Assembly (NCBI GenBank): GCA_950295325.1
Contig: OX485807.1
Span: 21,237,666 to 21,301,665, forward strand
DNA from: Polytrichum commune
Lineage: Eukaryota; Streptophyta; Polytrichopsida; Polytrichales; Polytrichaceae
Direction: 5' to 3'
Length of the DNA: 64,000 nucleotides
Part shown: in pieces, positions 5,170-39,367 of the stretch
Numbering within the stretch: position 1 is the stretch's first letter
Layout of the letters: each line of letters starts with the position of its first letter
Position numbers and translations under genes: made by a program
The notes under the pieces: model-generated
Database searches by the model: none
Told to the model about the DNA's origin: nothing
What the model saw: the letters and a program-made list of their open reading frames with translations, nothing else

Positions 5170-5859
5170 CAGTAACCTCCCGCTTAAGTACGCAACTTGA
5201 ACATGCGCAGTTTGTGCGTATTTAGCTGGTAGGTGCGTACTTTAGGGTTTCCCAAATTGCTTGTGTTTTGCTATAGTTGGTAGGTGCGTACTTTAGGATT
5301 TAGGGTTTCCCAAATCGCTATCGCTTGTGTTTCGCTATAGCCGGTAGGTGTGTACTTTAGGGTTTAAGGTTTCCCAAATCGCTTGTGTTTCGCTACAATG
5401 TCTAAGAAACCAAACGGAAAGCGGCTCAATGAGCATCAACGTTGTGAAATCATCTTGAAACTTAGCATAATGAATACTCCGAGTAAAAGGGCTCTAGCCC
5501 GAGAGTACATCGTTAGTGAAGGCGATGTTAACACTCAAGAACTGAATGTCGGTTTAGAAAACGGAGTTATATTCTAGGGTTTTGACTCTCTTTATAAGCA
5601 AGTTCTTGACATCGAGGATTAGCTGCTCTGCCTTGAAGTTCAAGCAGAAGCAAAGGAAATTTTTGATGGCCTTAAGAAATCGTTTGAATCATTTCAGAGC
5701 AAGATCCGAGCGGTCGACCTCAAAGCCAAACACAAAAAACTTCAAAACTTACGCCAAATGACGATTCACGACATGTTCAACTAATAAATCTTGAACCCTA
5801 AATTTTTTGCCAAAAAATGCGTACTTAAGCGGGATGCGTACTTAAGCGGGAGGTTACTG
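5170..5859 (+). mobile_element. Deleted pogo/Tigger-like (Tc1-mariner superfamily) DNA transposon
   Basis: The element has identical 24-bp inverted ends (CAGTAACCTCCCGCTTAAGT... at the left, its exact reverse complement at the right) and is flanked by TA at 5168-5169 and 5860-5861, the target site of Tc1/mariner elements. At 690 bp it is far shorter than an autonomous pogo element. It keeps the two ends of the transposase frame but not the catalytic core. Inside the left end are three copies of a ~50-64 bp unit (5228, 5279 and 5343), and at the right end a 17-bp tandem duplication of the terminal repeat (5817-5833 and 5834-5850). Confidence 0.85.
5398..5784 (+). pseudogene. Internally deleted pogo-like transposase remnant
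   Basis: From ATG 5398 the frame encodes a basic start (MSKKPNGKRLNEHQRCEIIL) followed by SKRALAREY, the helix-turn-helix DNA-binding pattern of pogo/CENP-B N-termini. In-frame stops occur at 5575 and 5620. After the second stop the same frame stays open to TAA 5782 and ends in a helical C-terminus with QMTIHDMF, a match to the PCNA-binding QxxI/LxxFF-type motif known at the C-terminus of pogo transposases. The whole DDE/D catalytic region is absent, so this copy cannot encode an active enzyme. It could be mobilised only in trans. Confidence 0.7.
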
Positions 5860-29122: not shown

Positions 29123-31260
29123 GAGATAACACGGACTTGTGATCGGCTTTGGTTGCAGGAAGAGATGAGGGGAAAGAAACCCCTACTCTGAATTCATTGC
29201 ACATACACCTATATATCGCAACTTTTGTAATGTTTGAGGCAAATTATGATTTTGCAGGTTTTTGAAAGCTCTGGAAGTTTGATCATGGGTACTATCCTTT
29301 TGTTCTTTTGACGTAGATGAATGATTGCTGTTTCTTGAAAGCTAATAGTGGATTGGAATCACCTTTTTTTGTAACATTTGTAGTCAACTTTCAGATTGCG
29401 ATGTGTGCACATTGACATGATCGTTTGATCGTTATGAGGAAATTGAACTTGACTTCGTGTCATACCGTCTGTCTGCATCGATGATAGTTTTAATAAAGCT
29501 TTTCATGCCCTTCGAAATCTGTAAACTTAGAAAGTAAAGTATATATGGGCCTTATTGGTCACTCTTCATAACTGGACACCTTACACAATGAGTGGTATAT
29601 GTCAAGGCTTGTAGTTGCGAATGGACTCCAAAAAGACATGTGGTCCAAGGAGATAGGACACATGTGCTCAAACCATTCCAGGATCGATAGTCAGCACAAT
29701 TTGAAGGGTCCAAGTTATGTGATCGGTTAAATATGAAGAGACTCTTCACTTTGACCTCTTCCAAAACTTCAAATGACAAATCTTTGTAATTCGTGATTGC
29801 CCACAAAAAATTAGGGCCACATACCTTAAAGCTTTAAGTAGTTGTTGTAGGAAGAAACTGAAGTGCCATTGAAGCTCCTGATAAGGTTTAAAGGTGAGCG
29901 GTGAGCGGACTCACAGCCTCCGAGGAAAATGAGTAGCCATGGATGGAAAGCTTGAACCTTTTTTTAATGAGTTTAGGGCCGCCACGTGGAGACCTTCCGA
30001 CTTGGCAGTGCCTCGTGCGGCCGCCAAGTGGCTTCCTCGGAAGAATACGATGCAAACCGCGCGTGCTCGGTTTCTCGGATCGCATGGCAGAGGTTACCAC
30101 TTGGTAGACGGGGATTGGAAGGGTGGTCTCCCTTGCTGTCGCTCTCTGCCTTGCTTGATCTCCTGCATGCCATGCAGACCGCTTCTTGTCGCTACAAAGT
30201 TACAAAGCAAAAAAAAAAAAAAACAACATTAAACTTCATCGAACTTCATCGAAGCCTCTAGTTGAGCTCTGTCTCTTTCTCTCTCTCCCATCTATCTACA
30301 AATCTTATCCAGCACGTAACCTTGCCGACTCTACTTCCATCTTAATCCTCCGGTCCCACAAAATCTCCATTTGTGGCTTCCAATGCTCTGACACCGTTCC
30401 TTTTTGTCGTCAAGTTTCTCTTTGAAGCCCCACCTGTTGGGTTTTAGGAACACAGTTGGGTCACAACAGTCGTTGATGTTTCATTGAGTTTCTTTCAGAA
30501 GTTTGTTGTGGTTTAATATCTTTCTCGGATTGAGGTGCGGCTTGGTTGGGTAATATGCCACTATTCCACTTTGTTGTTGGTGTTTGCTCTTCGGAGCTAA
30601 AACTGAGGCTCTTGATGCCTGCGACTTGAAGACTATTGTTGGGTTAAGGGTAGCTACTCTGTTTGTTATTTCCGGTTCTTGTTGTGGGCTAAGTTGCCAA
30701 TTGCGGAGTTGGAGAGCTAAGTTGGATAGAAGGTGGGAGTAGTGAGCGAGCTTGCTCGGAGATTTTGGATTTTAGCAAAATAGGGGTTGATTGGCACACT
30801 GTTTCGTGGGCGTTCATTGTGTTTTACTATTTGTTGTTGTTTGGGTTGTATGTATCGAGCAGTTCGGGGTACAAAGCAGCTGTGTCGGGAGTAGGGGGGA
30901 ATGGTCTGAAATGAGGGGCTTTAGTGGCCCCTAAATGGGTTAGGTTCACAGATTTGTTCGGGAAAAAAATCGTTCCTGAAATTGCTATTCAGGTTATCAT
31001 CTCTTCTTTGTTAAAGCAAGCTTCACCGGTGGCAGTTGTTGTTGGTGGGTTGAGCAAACAAATCTGGTGAAAAATTTGGTGGAAGAAATAGGGAAGCTCA
31101 CAGATTTGTTCGGAAATAAAAATTGGTTGTGAAGTGGTGGAGGGTTAGGTTATTTCTTGTTTCTCTTGTTTCATGCAGTTGTTGTTGGTGAGTTGAGAAG
31201 AAAAAAAAATTGGTGAGGAAATAAAATAAAATAGGGTAAGGAAGCACCCAATCGGGGACA
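29123..31260 (+). promoter_or_regulatory. Spacer, then promoter and leader of the LEA–TMEM205 gene
   Basis: 29123-29900 holds nothing recognisable. From about 29970 the sequence becomes GC-richer. At 29982-29989 there is CCACGTGG, a palindromic G-box that also matches the ABRE core bound by bZIP factors in abscisic-acid and drought responses, fitting for a LEA gene. Long T- and G-rich leader-like DNA follows from about 30430 to the ATG at 31261. It contains a ~153-bp duplication (TCACAGATTTGTTCGG at about 30945 and 31097). Which part is transcribed is unknown. Confidence 0.45.
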
Positions 31261-34200
31261 ATGATGAACATTATAGCTCTCGGGTTGCTGCTGTCTTCGC
31301 TGGGTTCTGTGATGGTGCTCACACCGGACGGTGAGGGTCCCTTGGCAGCAGCGAGGGATGCCACCGTGGGGACAGTTAACACCGCAGCAGATTATGCCAA
31401 GTACGCAGGCGAAGGAATTGCCGACGCAGCGGGAGCCGCAACGGACTCTGCCAAGGCCAAAGTGGGTTGGTTCCGCAAGAAGGTCCTCCACCAGCCTCCA
31501 AAGCCTGAGGACCATCTTGGAGTTGCGAGGGAGAAAGCTGCCGCTGCCACGGACGAGTTTCTGGAGGCAAGCTCCCAACTCAAAGATGCGGCTATGGAGA
31601 AATTGGGATCAACCGCCACATCTGCCAAGGAGAAAGCGGGGGCTGCTTACAAGGAAACTGGTAAGTTAGTAGTTTGCAATGCCCCAAAGAGAGAAACTTT
31701 TTTCTCTAGTTTGTGTATTTACTCATGTTAACGTTCGTAAATCTAAAATAGGTGGGTTTGTGGGAATGCATTGGTTGCCAATATCCTTATCAAAAAGCTT
31801 TCGACTCAATCTCACGCTAAGTATTGGCCTCATATATGCATTGGGGATAATACAACCTTATTCTTGGTTTCATCCCTCCACCGAAACTGGTACGAAGTGA
31901 GTGCAATGCTGCAAAGAGAGAAACTTTCTTCTATGCACATCTTGTATATCTGAGAAAGTTTCTATTCTCACTTCTATTAAGGTCTTGAATTCTAAAGTAG
32001 ATGCGTTTGTGGTCTGCATTGGCTGCCAGTATCCTTATTGAAGAGCTTCGGCTCAATCTATAGGTTGTAGCCTCGTGGATGCATGGGGGTTGATATAACC
32101 TTAGTCGCGGTTTAACAGCCTCGTTTAGCTGACTTTGGGCTAAGTACTCAAAATTACTATGAGCCCAAAATTGCTATGTGTACTCACCACCCTTCAAAGG
32201 GTCTATCAAAGCCAATTTTGCCAATGCCATGTAGAAACTGATCGTTTTTAATCTACTGACGAAGTTGTGGGGAACTCTTATCTATGTTTGTTGTTTATGG
32301 TCCTCCGCAACCACTTTGGGAATGATTCAAGGTTGTTGAGCTTGCAACAATGCTTGCACTTTCTTGTATCCTCTTCAACCGTCAGCAAGGAAGTTCCGAG
32401 GAAGAGCTTTAAGGCAGTCCTCTTCTTCCGGGCGTTCCTTGCCTTCCGAGTGCATGCGTTGTTCAAGGAATCCACATAACCATTTTCCCCTTCTTGAATG
32501 AATGAGTGAATGAGTGAATGAATGAATGAGAGAGCCCGGCCTGCAAGGTGTGCACGCATCGTGTGTCTAAAGTCGCCAGATGTCAACCTTGTGATGAAGT
32601 CGACTGTACCTTTTCAAACATTGTTTGATGCATCTGCTTTTTTAATAAGGAAACTTTGACACTCCCCTGTTAAGTGGTGTCATTCTCATTTTGGAAGCAG
32701 TTTTCGTCGGTGAGAGGATTAGGGCATAAACCTGTGAATGTGGACGGACATTTGCACGTGGACGCACACTTTTGAGATTCGTTGCGTGTTCGGTGGTAAC
32801 CTTCTGGGAGGGGAGGGATTGGAGCACTGTTACATTCAAATGCACGGACTCCTCCTGCGTCAAATTTGACGTGAGAGCATGTGAAGCATCAAGGATTGAG
32901 GTTTTTGGACACTGACTCAGATTCGGGTGCATTTTGTTGTGCGACAGGGAGGTTTGCCGGGGAGAAGGCGTCACATGCAGTAGGAGCTGTAACGAATGCT
33001 GCTGGGAAAGCTGCGGGGTGGGTAGGGGATGGTGCCCACTACACTTACGATGGCGTCAGTAACACCGCCGGTGCTGCGAAAGATGCAGCTTACAACGCTG
33101 CCGCTGCAGCTGGTGATCAAACCAGGTCCACCATTCTAAGTGTAAGTCTTCCTTTCTTTCTTGCCACTTGCCACTGATGATGATTAAAAAATATTGCGGC
33201 ATAAAAGTGAAGATGGTGCAGTTGCAGAATCCTGCAATACCTCTTAATGAAATCTCAAATTGTTTTATCAACACATGGATTTTTGCCGCTTCCGCAATTC
33301 ACAGTTCACGCTTGTCATGTAATTGGGAAAGCAGGATGCATTTGAAGTCCTGGTTTTTGTCGCAAGGGTGAAACATATGGTGCCGTTCTCATCTTCCATG
33401 GTTGGATTGCAGGCCGGCCACAAGCTGAGAGAAGGCACAGGGGACGCGTACGAGTCTGCAGCCGATACTCTGGAGTCCGCAAAGGCCAAGTCGTATGAGA
33501 AGCTTGGTGAAGCGCGAGCTACCACCTTCGAAACGGCCGAGAATTTGAAGAACAAGGCAGCCGATTCAGTCGGGGATTTCGAAGAGCGAGCATACGACCT
33601 TGGACATAAGGGGGCCGAGAAAGTGACGTCTGCAGCCGGCTCGGCAAAGGACACCGCATACACGGCGGCTGAAAACGCGCAGGACAGGGTGCACGACACG
33701 GCGGCAAGCGCGCGAGACACCGTGGTGGAGAATGCGCACTTGGGTGCGGACAAGAGCAAGGGGACGGCCATCGACGCCGCGGAGAAGGTGAAGGAAACCG
33801 GCGACATTGTGGGTCACGGGGCCAAAGATATTGGACTCGGGTTGATTGGGAAGGTGAAGGAAGCCGCGTGCAAGACGGCCGAGTGCCTCCGCTTGCGAGC
33901 GCAGGAGGCGGGATCGCTCCTCCCTAACGTCGGGCAGGGAGTCGGATATGCATACGTGAATGACGGGAAAGATGGGAAAGCCGCCGACGTGAAAGGAGCT
34001 GTGAAGGACGGAGCTCAACATGCCGCGGACTACGTCGCCGACACGAGCCAACATGCGAAGGCGAGAGTGAAGGAGGGAGCGGAGAGCACCGTGAACACGG
34101 GAAAACAAGCTTACGACGGCACCAAAGAGAAGGCCGGCGAGTATTATGAGGGTGCCAAAGACCGAACCGGCGAAAACTACGACAGCGCAAAAGAGACGTT

Positions 34201-35606
34201 GCGGGAGTACTACGACGAAGCCGGGAGGCGCTACCGAAGCGCACGCGACTACTACGACGGGTTTGATGGTGGAGCGCCTCCGAGAGCAAGAGGAGGCGGA
34301 GGGAGGCGCCACAGGGGCGTTCGCCATATCCCTCTCAGCAGCAGCTACTTTGACGCAGGGGAAGACGGGTACGAGGATAGTAACGACGGGGTGAAGGATC
34401 GTGCCCGGCGAACGTACCAAGCCGGCCGCGACCGGGCGGGAGAGTACGGCGAGGAGATCCGGGATAAGTTCTCCGGCGGGGGCTCGTCGCCTCGGGGCGA
34501 TCGAGGAGGCGACGATTATTTCACCGCGGCGAGGCGTCGTGTGGCGAGTGAATTCGATGACGGTAGGCAGAGAGGCGGTGGCGGAGGGTACTACGATGGC
34601 GCGAGGCGAAGGGCGAGCCAGTATTACGAGAATGCGAGAGACCGGTCGGGCGATTACTACGAAGGGGCGAAACAGAGAGGCGGGGATCTTTACCGCGGCG
34701 TGCGAGACACCGCCGAGGATCTATACGAGAGCAGTGGCGCCAACAAGGGCCAACAACAACAACCACAAGGCCACCAAGGCATCCACGACTTGGAAGCGGT
34801 GGTGGAGTCGATGGGGTGGCGGCGCGTTGGGGAGGTGCATCCCAGAAAGCATGATGCCACCACAAGGGGGGTTTCATCGTCGGGGTCGCCGGAGGAGATC
34901 ATCATCGGGAATGTGAAATACTCGAAGCCAGCCGCGGACAGCGTTTTCAACCGAATGTCGAACACGGTGAAAGGAGCGGCGCAGACGGTCGGCGAGAGGT
35001 TAGGCTTTGCGAGAGACCGGGAGAGGGATGCCTCGGGGAATCATTTCCGTGCCAAGGAGGAGATGGCGGAGCGGTTGCGAAAGGCGGAAGAACCTGTGCG
35101 AGGCGCACGAGAGTTCTCCCAGAGGTACAGCAGCCCCGGGATGCATTACGCCAAGGACAGCTTGTGGAACGCCAGAGAGCAGGCGACGCGGAGAGACAGG
35201 AGATCGGAGCTGCAGCAAGGGAGGTTCTGGGGGTACCGGGACTTCGAAGGCGGCGATGAGGACGACTACGATGAAGACGAAATATCCACACCCGCGGACG
35301 ACCAGAATATCTTGTCCAAGGGTGCCGAGAATCTGAAGCAAGGCATTCAGAGGGCCGGTCGGGAGTACGAGTCACAGCGCTCCAAGGCGGGCGAGTATGC
35401 CGATGCCGCTCGCAGCGAAATTAAAGGTATTGCTGGGTATGGGGGAGAAGACGACAGCGAGGAAGGGTATGAGTATGAGCAGGACAATGTAACATCAGAA
35501 GGTAATGAAAGAATGAGTTGAGTAAAGGTGGTGGTAAATGCATCCAGGAATCCCCTGCTGACATCGGAGAGAAAGATGTGATGCAATTCTGGCTCTTACC
35601 ACTACC

Positions 35607-35638
<32 letters not shown>

Positions 35639-37308
35639 TGTGGGGTTTCGGGGGTATCCCAACCTGAATTCAGTCTTGAATGTTGATTGGTCATAATCGT
35701 AGGCATCTTTACAGTCAGTCATGCCCGGAGTGACAACTCTTCTTTTTAGAACAGTTGTTTCTAAATCACTGCTAATGGACCAATGATTTCTTTCTTCACA
35801 AGTTGAAGAAACATGCTTGGAAGGAGGCGATTGAGAGGAATCCATTGATATAATGCTTAAGAGGATGCTTCAGCTTGTGCTGACTGTCAATAAGCTGGGG
35901 TTAATGAACACTCACTCTTTTCTCGGGCCTCCTTTTTTTGTTTGTTATGAGAAGGGCAGGGCTGAAGGCGCTGTTTTAGCTTCTTTTAAAGCCCTAAAGA
36001 AAACTAGAAAATGTCATAACAATTCTGGTGGCATGATCATGTGCAGGAAAGAGCCCAGCACACACATGGAAGCACATGCTCTTGAGGCGGCCCATGGGAT
36101 TTCTTCTCGGCTTGACTCGACTTCTCCACCTCTTCACATTCTCCACAATTTACGGGTCCGCTTTTTGGGTTACATTTGTGTCGGGCCTCATCTTGTCCAA
36201 GAACATCCCACGCCAACAATTTGGCTATGTGCAAAGTCGCATGTTCCCGGTGTACCTCCGCGTTTTGGCTGCTGGAGAGGGGTTTCTGTTCATCCTGCAT
36301 TCCCTCATGCATCCATGGTTCTCAGCCGAAGTTGGAGAACGCTGGCAATTGCAGAACTTTTTGTTCATGATTGTTGCCACATTGATCAATGTGTATGTTC
36401 TTGAGCCCCGCTCCACAAAGGTATGATAACTCAACCCTGCAATAATGGTCAGAACTGGAAAGTAACCCAAATGAGAGCTGCCACATCACACTATGTGAAA
36501 GTACCAATGCTCATCTGTTCTTATAATCTGGCAATATGTAGGAAGAATATCTATATCAAGTCAGATGGGTTATACTACTCTTCAGCAAGTCATTCAGGCT
36601 CTATGCATGCCCAGAAGAGCTTGTTCTGGATTGTCTGGGGTGATGCGACATTTCTTTGCATAGATTCTCAATTCGAACCGAAATGTTGAACCCTTAAGCG
36701 TCCATGAGGCCTTATCTGGGCTTCTCCATTTACAGAAACGTGTATTTGTGTCATGTACTTCCATTTTCAGTTTAAATTTACTTTAAGTGTGTCAAAAGTG
36801 ACCCTATATAAAATTAACCCATTCTTCAAGTGCACTTTTCATATCAGTCGAATGCCTTACTGTCTTGAAGGATTTGGGTTCAAATACACAACATGAGCGC
36901 CCTTAGATGCAAATCTATACTGAATGTCACAAGTGAGTATATTTTTATTTTTCTCCAGGACATCAGACAATGTACTAGATGGAGTTCCAAAACTCATAAA
37001 CGTTAGAATGGTTAATATATTCGAAGACTTGGTGAGGCTCCTAGAGCAGCTTGTTTTTAACCATGTTGGAATTGGTGGTGCAGGTCATGTTCGAAAGGTT
37101 GAAACTGGAGAAAGAGGAAGGGAGGGTACTTGATGACACAATTTCTCCTGCGGATGCTAAGCAAGCACATGAGGACCACGAGAAGAAGCTCAGCACAATC
37201 AACCAGCATTTCAAAGTCCTCCATGGTTACTCTTCGGCGCTCAACCTGGTGAGCTTGGCAGGGCTGACATGGCACCTGTGGCATTTGGCACGTCACCTTG
37301 TGATTTAA
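31261..37308 (+). CDS. LEA domain–TMEM205 (DUF4149) fusion protein
   Basis: Five exons: 31261-31660, 32948-33141, 33413-35501, 36047-36420, 37084-37308; 3282 nt, 1093 residues. Residues 1-20 look like a signal peptide (MMNIIALGLLLSSLGS). About 25-430 is Ala/Lys/Glu/Asp-rich with repeats of the group-3 LEA type (e.g. AKDAAYNAAAAAGD). About 435-650 is a Tyr/Arg/Gly-rich repeat (YYEGAK, YYDGAR, YYENARDRSGDYY). An acidic patch (GGDEDDYDEDE) lies near 810. Residues about 896-1093 are a TMEM205-like unit with four membrane segments. Fusions of LEA and TMEM205 domains are known in plants such as Arabidopsis. The link rests on the donor GAAG|GTAATG at 35502 and acceptor GTGCAG ending 36046, which join exactly in phase. 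Without that splice exon 3 stops at 35519, giving a 900-residue LEA-only protein. Confidence 0.75.
31672..32110 (+). repeat. ~235-bp tandem duplication in intron 1 of the LEA–TMEM205 gene
   Basis: Two copies share TGC(C/A)..AAAGAGAGAAACTTT, TCTAAA(A/G)TAG.TG.GTTTGTGG, GCATTGG(T/C)TGCCA(A/G)TATCCTTAT, GCTT(T/C)CG(A/G)CTCAATCT and GATA(A/T)..ACCTTA, at about 31672-31905 and 31906-32105. Confidence 0.75.
32494..32531 (+). repeat. GAAT/GAGT tetranucleotide microsatellite
   Basis: A run of GAATGAATGAGTGAATGAGT type units in intron 1 of the LEA–TMEM205 gene. Confidence 0.85.
35607..35638 (+). repeat. (GAT)n microsatellite
   Basis: About ten ATG/GAT triplets in the intron between the LEA and TMEM205 parts of the fusion gene. 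Confidence 0.85.
35806..35852 (+). repeat. Stray fragment of the dehydrogenase intron-1 repeat
   Basis: ACATGCTTGGAAGGAGGCGATTGAGAGGAATCCATTGA closely follows the segment of the ~210-bp repeat unit at 14340-15300 (ACATGTAGCATGCTTGGAAAG.. GCATTGAGGGGAAGGAATCCATTGAC). It sits in the intron joining the LEA and TMEM205 exons. Confidence 0.6.
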
Positions 37309-38335
37309 TCATTTTCACCTGAGCCTGGGCCACCTCTTTGTAGATAAGGAAAAAACAGAGAGCAGTTGCCACATGATGTTGCTGTTGTACAGAAATAGTT
37401 CAAGCCCACTTCCTGGGTTAGTTACTTCTGGGCGTAAAAGCATCCACACAACTTCAGGGTGATTCTTTGTGGAAGATTTTACTCGACCGTTAGGAGCTGC
37501 TCCATTCAAGCAACGAAGTTTTTGCAGTCAAGTGTTAATGCATGTCTCAACCTGGTCAATATTTGAGAATTGTACTTATGACGGATTGGGTTTGGTGATC
37601 TTTGATCTTTGATCTTGGAGGGTTGGTTAAGAGACACCCTCAAGAACAGTAGAATTACATTGAAAGAGGAAACCAGATGAAATTGAACGGATCAGGAACA
37701 TGACCGGTTGATGACAACACTGTACACTTGATGATCATGTATACCACTTCATTCCTTTTGTTCCTTGCAAGATTTCCAGGTTGCAAATTTGGTACTAGAA
37801 CAGAGGTTATTGTTGTTAGAAAGTGTTGCGTAGTGCAGAATGTTCTGGAATGCAAAATGTCTACATAATGTGAATTGTGGAAGTTTGTAGTTACAGATTT
37901 GATGAATTTCTGCCTCAATTCGAAACTTTGGGGTAATTATCAACCTGCTAAGCTTCACTGAAAGGCAGACACCCTCCATGATTGAAACAACGGATGTGCA
38001 CACACATATTCTCCCAACTCCACAAATAAGGATAGCATGTTTCCATCTTGGCCACCCTCCGCAAAAAAATCACTTAATTTGTTTGCAGTCCTTTGTAGAT
38101 AGGTCTGTGACATCCTGTTCCTTGTTGATTCAATAGACAAAATGTCCCTCAAAAATATCTTCTGGGGGCTCTCATTGTGTGAATATATATGTTGGACACT
38201 GACCTCCAATAAGGGTAGACCTTCCACCTTGTGACAAATGATAATTTAGAGGCAAGGCGAGTAAACATAGGGGAAGCCCTACATTTTTTCACGATCATGA
38301 ATAATTATAATTATTTTTCACATTTACACATCTAT
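37309..38335. other. Intergenic: 3' UTR of the fusion gene and spacer
   Basis: No coding exon recognised. The 3' untranslated region of the fusion gene probably fills the start. The last 60 bases before the tRNA pair are AT-rich, as usual upstream of plant tRNA genes. Confidence 0.45.
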
Positions 38336-38408
38336 TCCATAATAGTCTAGATGGTTAGGATACCTGGCTTTCACCCAGGCGACCCGGGTTCGAGTCCCGG
38401 TTATGGAA
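38336..38408 (+). tRNA. trnE: tRNA-Glu (anticodon UUC)
   Basis: A 73-nt cloverleaf. The 7-bp acceptor stem is TCCATAA/TTATGGA, the D-arm contains TAGTCTAGATGGTTAGGATA, the anticodon loop CTTTCAC is held by CCTGG/CCAGG, and the T-arm contains GGGTTCGAGTCCC. The sequence is close to the cytosolic plant tRNA-Glu and unlike the chloroplast one. No intron, CCA not encoded. Confidence 0.95.
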
Positions 38409-38412
38409 TTCC

Positions 38413-38417
38413 GCGGG

Positions 38418-38460
<43 letters not shown>

Positions 38461-38485
38461 GCGTGTTCGATCCACGCTCACCGCA
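38413..38485 (+). tRNA. trnF: tRNA-Phe (anticodon GAA)
   Basis: A 73-nt cloverleaf matching the well-known plant cytosolic tRNA-Phe: GCGGGGATAGCTCAGTTGGG, an anticodon stem CAGAC/.TCTG with loop CTGAAGA, and GTTCGATCC in the T-arm, ending TCACCGCA. It starts four bases after tRNA-Glu. A run of five T at about 38489 is a Pol III terminator, and there is none between the two genes. Confidence 0.95.
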
Positions 38486-39367
38486 CACATTTTTAATTTC
38501 TGTAAACCTTTTTTTGGAGTTTCTTTTTAATCACCAGTGGATTCTTCAGGTGTAGGACGTCCTAACACAATTGAATCTTAGATTTTGAAGCGAATTTGTA
38601 ACAGTTATGAGTTTTCAAAATGACATGTCTGCAAGTGTTCTAGGTGTTTTTCTTCCACAATAGACTCCTAGTAACCACTTGGCAAGCATGAGGATTTTGA
38701 GTAATAAATAGTTGGCGTTGGTAGAAAGCAGGGTAACATGCAATCAATAGGCAATTTCAATTACCATAATCAAGCAAAACATGACACAAATAGAATTGGA
38801 AACGAGGCTTCACTTCGAAGACAACTCTACATCACATTCAAGCTAAACACATGTGGTGTTATTTTCACTTAATCTTTTTTATTGATTGTGCTAAAGATGG
38901 AATCTGTACCACAGACCTAGTAAATATTATTTCAATGCCTGTTGGGGGGTTTGTACAATCATCATGTATCCCATTTAAACCCTAAACACATCCCAGTCCT
39001 TTAAGGATAGACATCCAGAATTCTACCCACTGTAGTGTCTATGCATGTCCTAAAGTCTCCTGCCAGAGGAGGTGACTGGATTTGCACTACACAAATAAAG
39101 CACCTTATCGACACTATAGGTGCCTAATCAACGCTATGTTTTAACGGCCTCCTCTTTAAGACAAGAGGCATCAACAAACCACCATGTTGCCCAAAGATTA
39201 TTTCATCACAAATATGTCTTGTTACAAGAGAGGGTTAATTACAGTCTGGAGTGGTTGTTTGAGTGTTGGCTATATTCAATATCAACAACATAACTTCAAG
39301 AAGGTTGTGCGGTCTACATAGTTTCTTGTTTGAAAACATTTGCAGCAATTTGGCAACTCGCTGAACC
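38486..39367. other. Spacer and 3' UTR of the persulfide dioxygenase gene
   Basis: Apart from the T-run terminator at about 38489, nothing is recognised. The right part is probably transcribed (minus strand) as the 3' untranslated region of the neighbouring gene. Confidence 0.45.

Follow-up and report, generated by a model that had tools for sequence, protein, structure and literature searches.

In a 64,000-nucleotide stretch of the genome of the moss Polytrichum commune (contig OX485807.1, positions 21,237,666 to 21,301,665; this whole stretch is referred to here as the window), we analysed a five-exon gene on the plus strand. The reading that we favour, with a probability of roughly 80%, is that of an ordinarily spliced gene with an ordinary third intron, encoding a protein that resembles the late embryogenesis abundant (LEA) protein LEA9 and carries a TMEM205 membrane unit. 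The predicted protein would run from a hydrophobic N-terminal segment, either signal or anchor, through about 870 hydrophilic residues made up of 11-residue repeats, to the TMEM205 membrane unit. Joined together, the five exons give 3282 bases free of internal stops, corresponding to 1093 residues and a stop codon. If intron 3 (donor GT at 35502-35503, acceptor AG at 36045-36046) is kept, the frame instead yields 900 residues ending ...TSEGNERMS, with an in-frame stop at 35519-35521. The coordinates, the in-phase splice and both product lengths given by a first-pass annotation of this DNA were all reproduced when the exons were re-joined, and on the sequence evidence the gene model is real. 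Its parts are as follows.

31261-31660, + strand: exon 1, with the start codon and N-terminal hydrophobic segment; the LEA-like region begins here; ends in phase 1 after ...KETG
32948-33141, + strand: exon 2, LEA-like region
33413-35501, + strand: exon 3 (2089 bases), with 11-residue LEA-like repeats, a Tyr/Arg/Gly-rich stretch, a module common with the paralogue L002 (see below) and an acidic tail
34772-35014, + strand: the module inside the LEA-like region, common to L002 4373-4579
35502-36046, + strand: intron 3 (545 bases, phase 1), separating the LEA-like and TMEM205 parts
36047-36420, + strand: exon 4, with the first three predicted DUF4149/TMEM205 helices (from Pfam PF13664 and hydropathy)
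37084-37308, + strand: exon 5, with the remainder of the TMEM205 unit and the stop codon

The repeat region and the membrane unit

The protein opens with a strongly hydrophobic stretch (residues 2-20, mean hydropathy 2.06), a predicted signal or anchor segment, and continues as a hydrophilic region (residues 26-894; grand average of hydropathy, GRAVY, -0.99). We then examined this region for periodicity at lags of 2-35 residues, with z scores calculated against 300 shuffles. A lag of 11 gave the highest scores for hydropathy (z 8.2), residue identity (10.1) and aromatic residues (4.2), and came second for charge (5.1, after 5.3 at lag 22). This period, which we take to be the repeat of group-3 LEA proteins, combines with the hydrophilic composition to give the region a group-3-like LEA character. 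At residues 425-660 lies a stretch rich in Tyr/Arg (Y 9.3%, R 14.0%, G 17.8%), which the first-pass annotation had singled out as a long repeat not so far described. The 11-residue period continues through it (at lag 11, identity z 7.2 and aromatics 4.5), and it is therefore better taken as a variant of the same repeat than as a repeat of a separate kind. A match to Apolipoprotein (E 2.9e-6, 27.6 bits, cut-off 90) was set aside, as we infer that it reflects a common 11/22-residue amphipathic period and not kinship.

The module within this region has the pattern GWxRVxE ... I/VGNxKY ... KP and is 38% identical to its counterpart in L002 (residues 6-78 of the 81-residue query, E 6.3e-4). At E ≤ 1 it was found at two places in the genome, both in fusion genes, with no third, and it had no match at E ≤ 1 in the PDB. 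Antisense to exon 3 there is an open frame of 384 codons (33566-34720, minus strand), which probably arises from the G+C richness of the coding strand (0.607 over exon 3, and 0.693 at third codon positions).

Exon 4 opens into a match to DUF4149 (Pfam PF13664), presumably the TMEM205 domain, which covers residues 925-1024 (75.0 bits against a cut-off of 24.6, E 6.2e-21). After residue 900, three areas have a 19-residue hydropathy mean above 1.2. The unit had been called a complete four-helix one, but its fourth helix has the lowest hydropathy of the four (best 19-residue mean 0.98) and is proposed on family resemblance. A PDB search with the TMEM205 unit gave no match at E 1, and a search of NCBIfam gave no family at E 1. 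An N-terminal hydrophobic segment, a region of 11-residue period and DUF4149 are thus found in one predicted spliced frame, in the window gene and likewise in L002; this is the arrangement that we call LEA9-like.

Relatives in the moss genome and in other plants

A genome-wide search for DUF4149 returned at least three matches. The paralogue L002 (C5:39093000-39102500) lies on the same contig as the window gene, about 17.8 Mb away, and its model (672 residues, seven exons) opens with a hydrophobic stretch, followed by sequence of 11-residue periodicity and then by DUF4149, which scores above the cut-off. At lag 11 it scores z 6.6 for hydropathy, 5.9 for charge and 5.3 for identity (which peaks at lag 33, 6.9); for aromatics, lag 11 was not among its six best lags. 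The two genes are alike in their N-terminal hydrophobic segment, the 11-residue period in hydropathy and charge, the module, the phase-1 junction intron and DUF4149, but differ in the Arg content of the LEA-like region (3.6% in L002, 8.3% in the window gene). Four intron places are common to both. Two are in phase 1, one following KETG and the other at the LEA-like/TMEM205 junction; two are in phase 0, one ahead of the start of exon 3 or its counterpart and one following LEPxxTK. Because the phase-1 junction intron is also present in L002, we regard the window gene as a true fusion, and this constitutes our best evidence.

The second relative, L001 (C3, 4297-6836, minus strand), is a 217-residue TMEM205 protein that lacks a LEA-like region. 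Its helical unit resembles that of the window gene, and its last intron is in phase 0 at the matching place, as it is in L002. L001 has an N-terminal hydrophobic segment of its own (residues 7-25), and a short linker precedes the helices. The LEA-like region of the fusion genes occupies the place of the L001 linker and, judging by this layout, may be a loop expansion rather than an added end.

That fusions of this type are known in plants, as previously noted for this gene, agrees with published descriptions, which we cite here from excerpts of the papers: CpLEA4-1 from papaya and Arabidopsis LEA9 hold a DUF4149 motif beside LEA_4 (PMC9502557), so that LEA-type repeats and DUF4149 stand in one protein in each, as in the window protein. 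LEA9 is At1g72100, LEA number 9 of its family list, with LEA_4, predicted to be secreted and expressed in seed (PMC2292704). Compared by description only, the window protein is the longer (1093 residues against 52.7 kD for LEA9; PMC8698616) and, unlike LEA9 and CpLEA4-1, has a Tyr/Arg/Gly-rich stretch. In the open-licence literature, no paper was found that pairs TMEM205 with late embryogenesis abundant. The view that a single gene is present here, with a LEA-like region and TMEM205 united in its spliced product, is consequently backed both by L002, with its like parts and phase-1 junction intron, and by the published plant LEA-DUF4149 proteins. The architecture is already known in plants, and the window gene adds a member to it, placing in a moss a long LEA9-like membrane fusion alongside its paralogue and a relative that has TMEM205 only. 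Given its occurrence in a moss, the LEA-TMEM205 architecture is likely to be old among land plants.

Counter-evidence and rival explanations

Several observations weigh against an ordinarily spliced LEA protein with a membrane tether. LEA_4 (PF02987) was absent at E 1 when searched for in the whole protein, in exons 1-2 and in L002, and the first 283 residues of exon 3 gave 14.3 bits (E 0.04), under the cut-off of 51.1; genome-wide, LEA_4 had three weak matches, all below the cut-off and none within the window gene. We call the region LEA-like because this cut-off is not reached. By analogy with Arabidopsis LEA9, the tether also meets an objection: LEA9 was localised to nuclei and hydration-dependent cytoplasmic condensates (PMC8698616), an earlier report cited in the same paper has it in pexophagosomes, and the endoplasmic reticulum location predicted by two tools was unconfirmed in that study (PMC8698616). 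As far as these excerpts go, such locations would not suggest a plain membrane protein. Furthermore, among the 12 introns of the three genes (the window gene, L002 and L001), the donor of intron 3, GTAATG, is the sole one without G at +5, and the acceptor tract of this intron is the poorest in T (0.29) and, equally with that of intron 4, in pyrimidines (0.41); inefficient splicing of intron 3 is therefore possible on sequence grounds. A Physcomitrella LEA homologue is among the differentially spliced genes of one study, the excerpt of which leaves the rest of the protein unstated (PMC5457400). Finally, the TMEM205 frame of L002 reaches back into the intron without a stop, covering 47 codons ahead of the acceptor (5350-5491) and including in-frame ATGs, so that a separate TMEM205 start is possible there.

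This last point bears on whether the window holds two separate genes side by side, one LEA-like and closing at 35521, the other for TMEM205 with its start ATG near 36076. Such an arrangement would fit the open L002 frame, the in-frame ATG at 36076 just ahead of the first helix and the existence in this genome of L001, a TMEM205 protein without LEA. However, L002 keeps the order of the parts, with the matching junction interrupted by a phase-1 intron, the part of its TMEM205 exon that precedes the first helix is free of in-frame ATGs, and plant LEA-DUF4149 fusions have been described in print (PMC9502557). We thus consider two genes very unlikely.

The exact splice pair deserves separate consideration, since with another pair (for example 35427/36046 or 35467/36053) the acidic tail would be partly or wholly intronic and the count of 1093 residues would be wrong. 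We scored donors with a small matrix built from 11 donors, in which 35502 reaches 5.81, and the other donors used, each left out in turn, span 3.79-9.07. Between 35301 and 35501, three GT sites outscore it: 35467 (9.08), 35437 (6.23) and 35395 (6.05). All three are in phase 2 and come into frame solely with the GAG acceptors 36053 or 36086, which lie a short way downstream of a CAG. The donor at 35427 is in phase with the acceptor at 36046, but its score is lower (4.71), and the matrix is small. It seems reasonable to regard a different pair as unlikely.

The first-pass annotation had gone further and proposed a built-in switch, in which drying or abscisic acid (ABA) would set the retention of intron 3 and thereby the choice between a tethered 1093-residue and a free 900-residue LEA protein. 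The weak donor and acceptor tract described above speak for such regulation, and the junction intron of L002, if retained, also stops early, after 2 codons. The donor weakness is not common to the paralogue, however, because the L002 junction donor is a full GTAAGT. Moreover, a stop soon after the donor proved to be generic. We counted stops over the ten introns of the two fusion genes, leaving the L001 introns aside: in the window gene, introns 1-4 if retained run for 23, 11, 6 and 1 codons before a stop, and those of L002 for 10, 1, 4, 7, 2 and 48 codons. An in-frame stop is therefore encountered in 10/10 cases (range 1-48 codons, median 6.5), with intron 3, at 6 codons, near the median. When the intron 3 body was shuffled 2000 times, a stop at least as early arose in 25% of the shuffles, and every one of them held an in-frame stop. 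The early stop on which the switch was built is thus the rule and lies within chance, and we regard the switch as highly improbable. The fuller proposal is marginally less probable still: a weakening of intron 3 would have made its splicing respond to drying or ABA, with two products from the one locus, a scaffold tethered to the membrane and a free LEA protein, rich in Tyr/Arg, that forms condensates in the manner of LEA9. Were the switch true, a single gene would be deciding, as the cell dries, whether protection is membrane-bound or free. The label 'secreted-type' for the 900-residue form likewise fares poorly: what lies behind it is the N-terminal hydrophobic segment, and LEA9, also predicted to be secreted, was found in nuclei and condensates (PMC8698616).

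Published work on mosses gives these numbers some context. Intron retention affects 4720 of 12 043 alternatively spliced moss genes, and the moss proteome gains little from alternative splicing, according to the excerpt of PMC5457400. Retained-intron isoforms in moss are described as common and largely resistant to nonsense-mediated decay (NMD), potentially because they are nuclear, and a handful of such isoforms occur on ribosomes in plants (PMC6009662). We had considered NMD as the chief argument against the switch and dropped it as too simple.

With regard to polyadenylation signals, intron 3 contains one AATAAG (35889) and two AATGAA (35504, 35903) but no AATAAA, which says little. A perfect ATG microsatellite of 10.3 copies also lies within this intron, at 35607-35637.

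Possible role and surroundings

On the favoured reading of an ordinarily spliced LEA9-like gene, transcripts that keep intron 3 would meet a stop after six codons and would be expected to be mostly nuclear or to give little protein. Group-3 LEA proteins turn from disorder to amphipathic helices on drying. The repeat region of the window protein would, in drying cells, presumably pass from disorder to amphipathic helices in the same way, while the TMEM205 unit would hold this LEA-like shield at an internal membrane.

The 1.5 kb upstream of the gene were scanned for standard motifs without a chance control; this gave one CACGTG (29983-29988), a further ACGTG on the opposite strand (30317), one site like a dehydration-responsive element (DRE; 30324) and RY-type CATGCA sites, with neither TATAAA nor TATATA present. 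Downstream of the gene, tRNA-Glu (ttc) and tRNA-Phe (gaa) genes stand side by side at 38335-38486 on the plus strand. In the genome at large (407.8 Mb in 64 contigs), the matches to DUF4149, the module, LEA_4, light-harvesting proteins and dynein heavy chains all fall on contigs C1-C7 (C3 is 59.2 Mb and C5 52.9 Mb long), and there are perhaps seven chromosomes, the number usual in Polytrichaceae. Dynein heavy chains gave at least 13 matches; such proteins occur in plants whose sperm swim. One light-harvesting protein had 9vfj (LHCI-2, 620 residues, with no single stretch passing) as its top PDB entry, followed by 8htu and 7xqp, which are Physcomitrium entries. Elsewhere on the contig, 14 light-harvesting matches of equal profile score are spread on both strands over about 94 kb (C5:1751760-1846160), a gene array that is probably recent.

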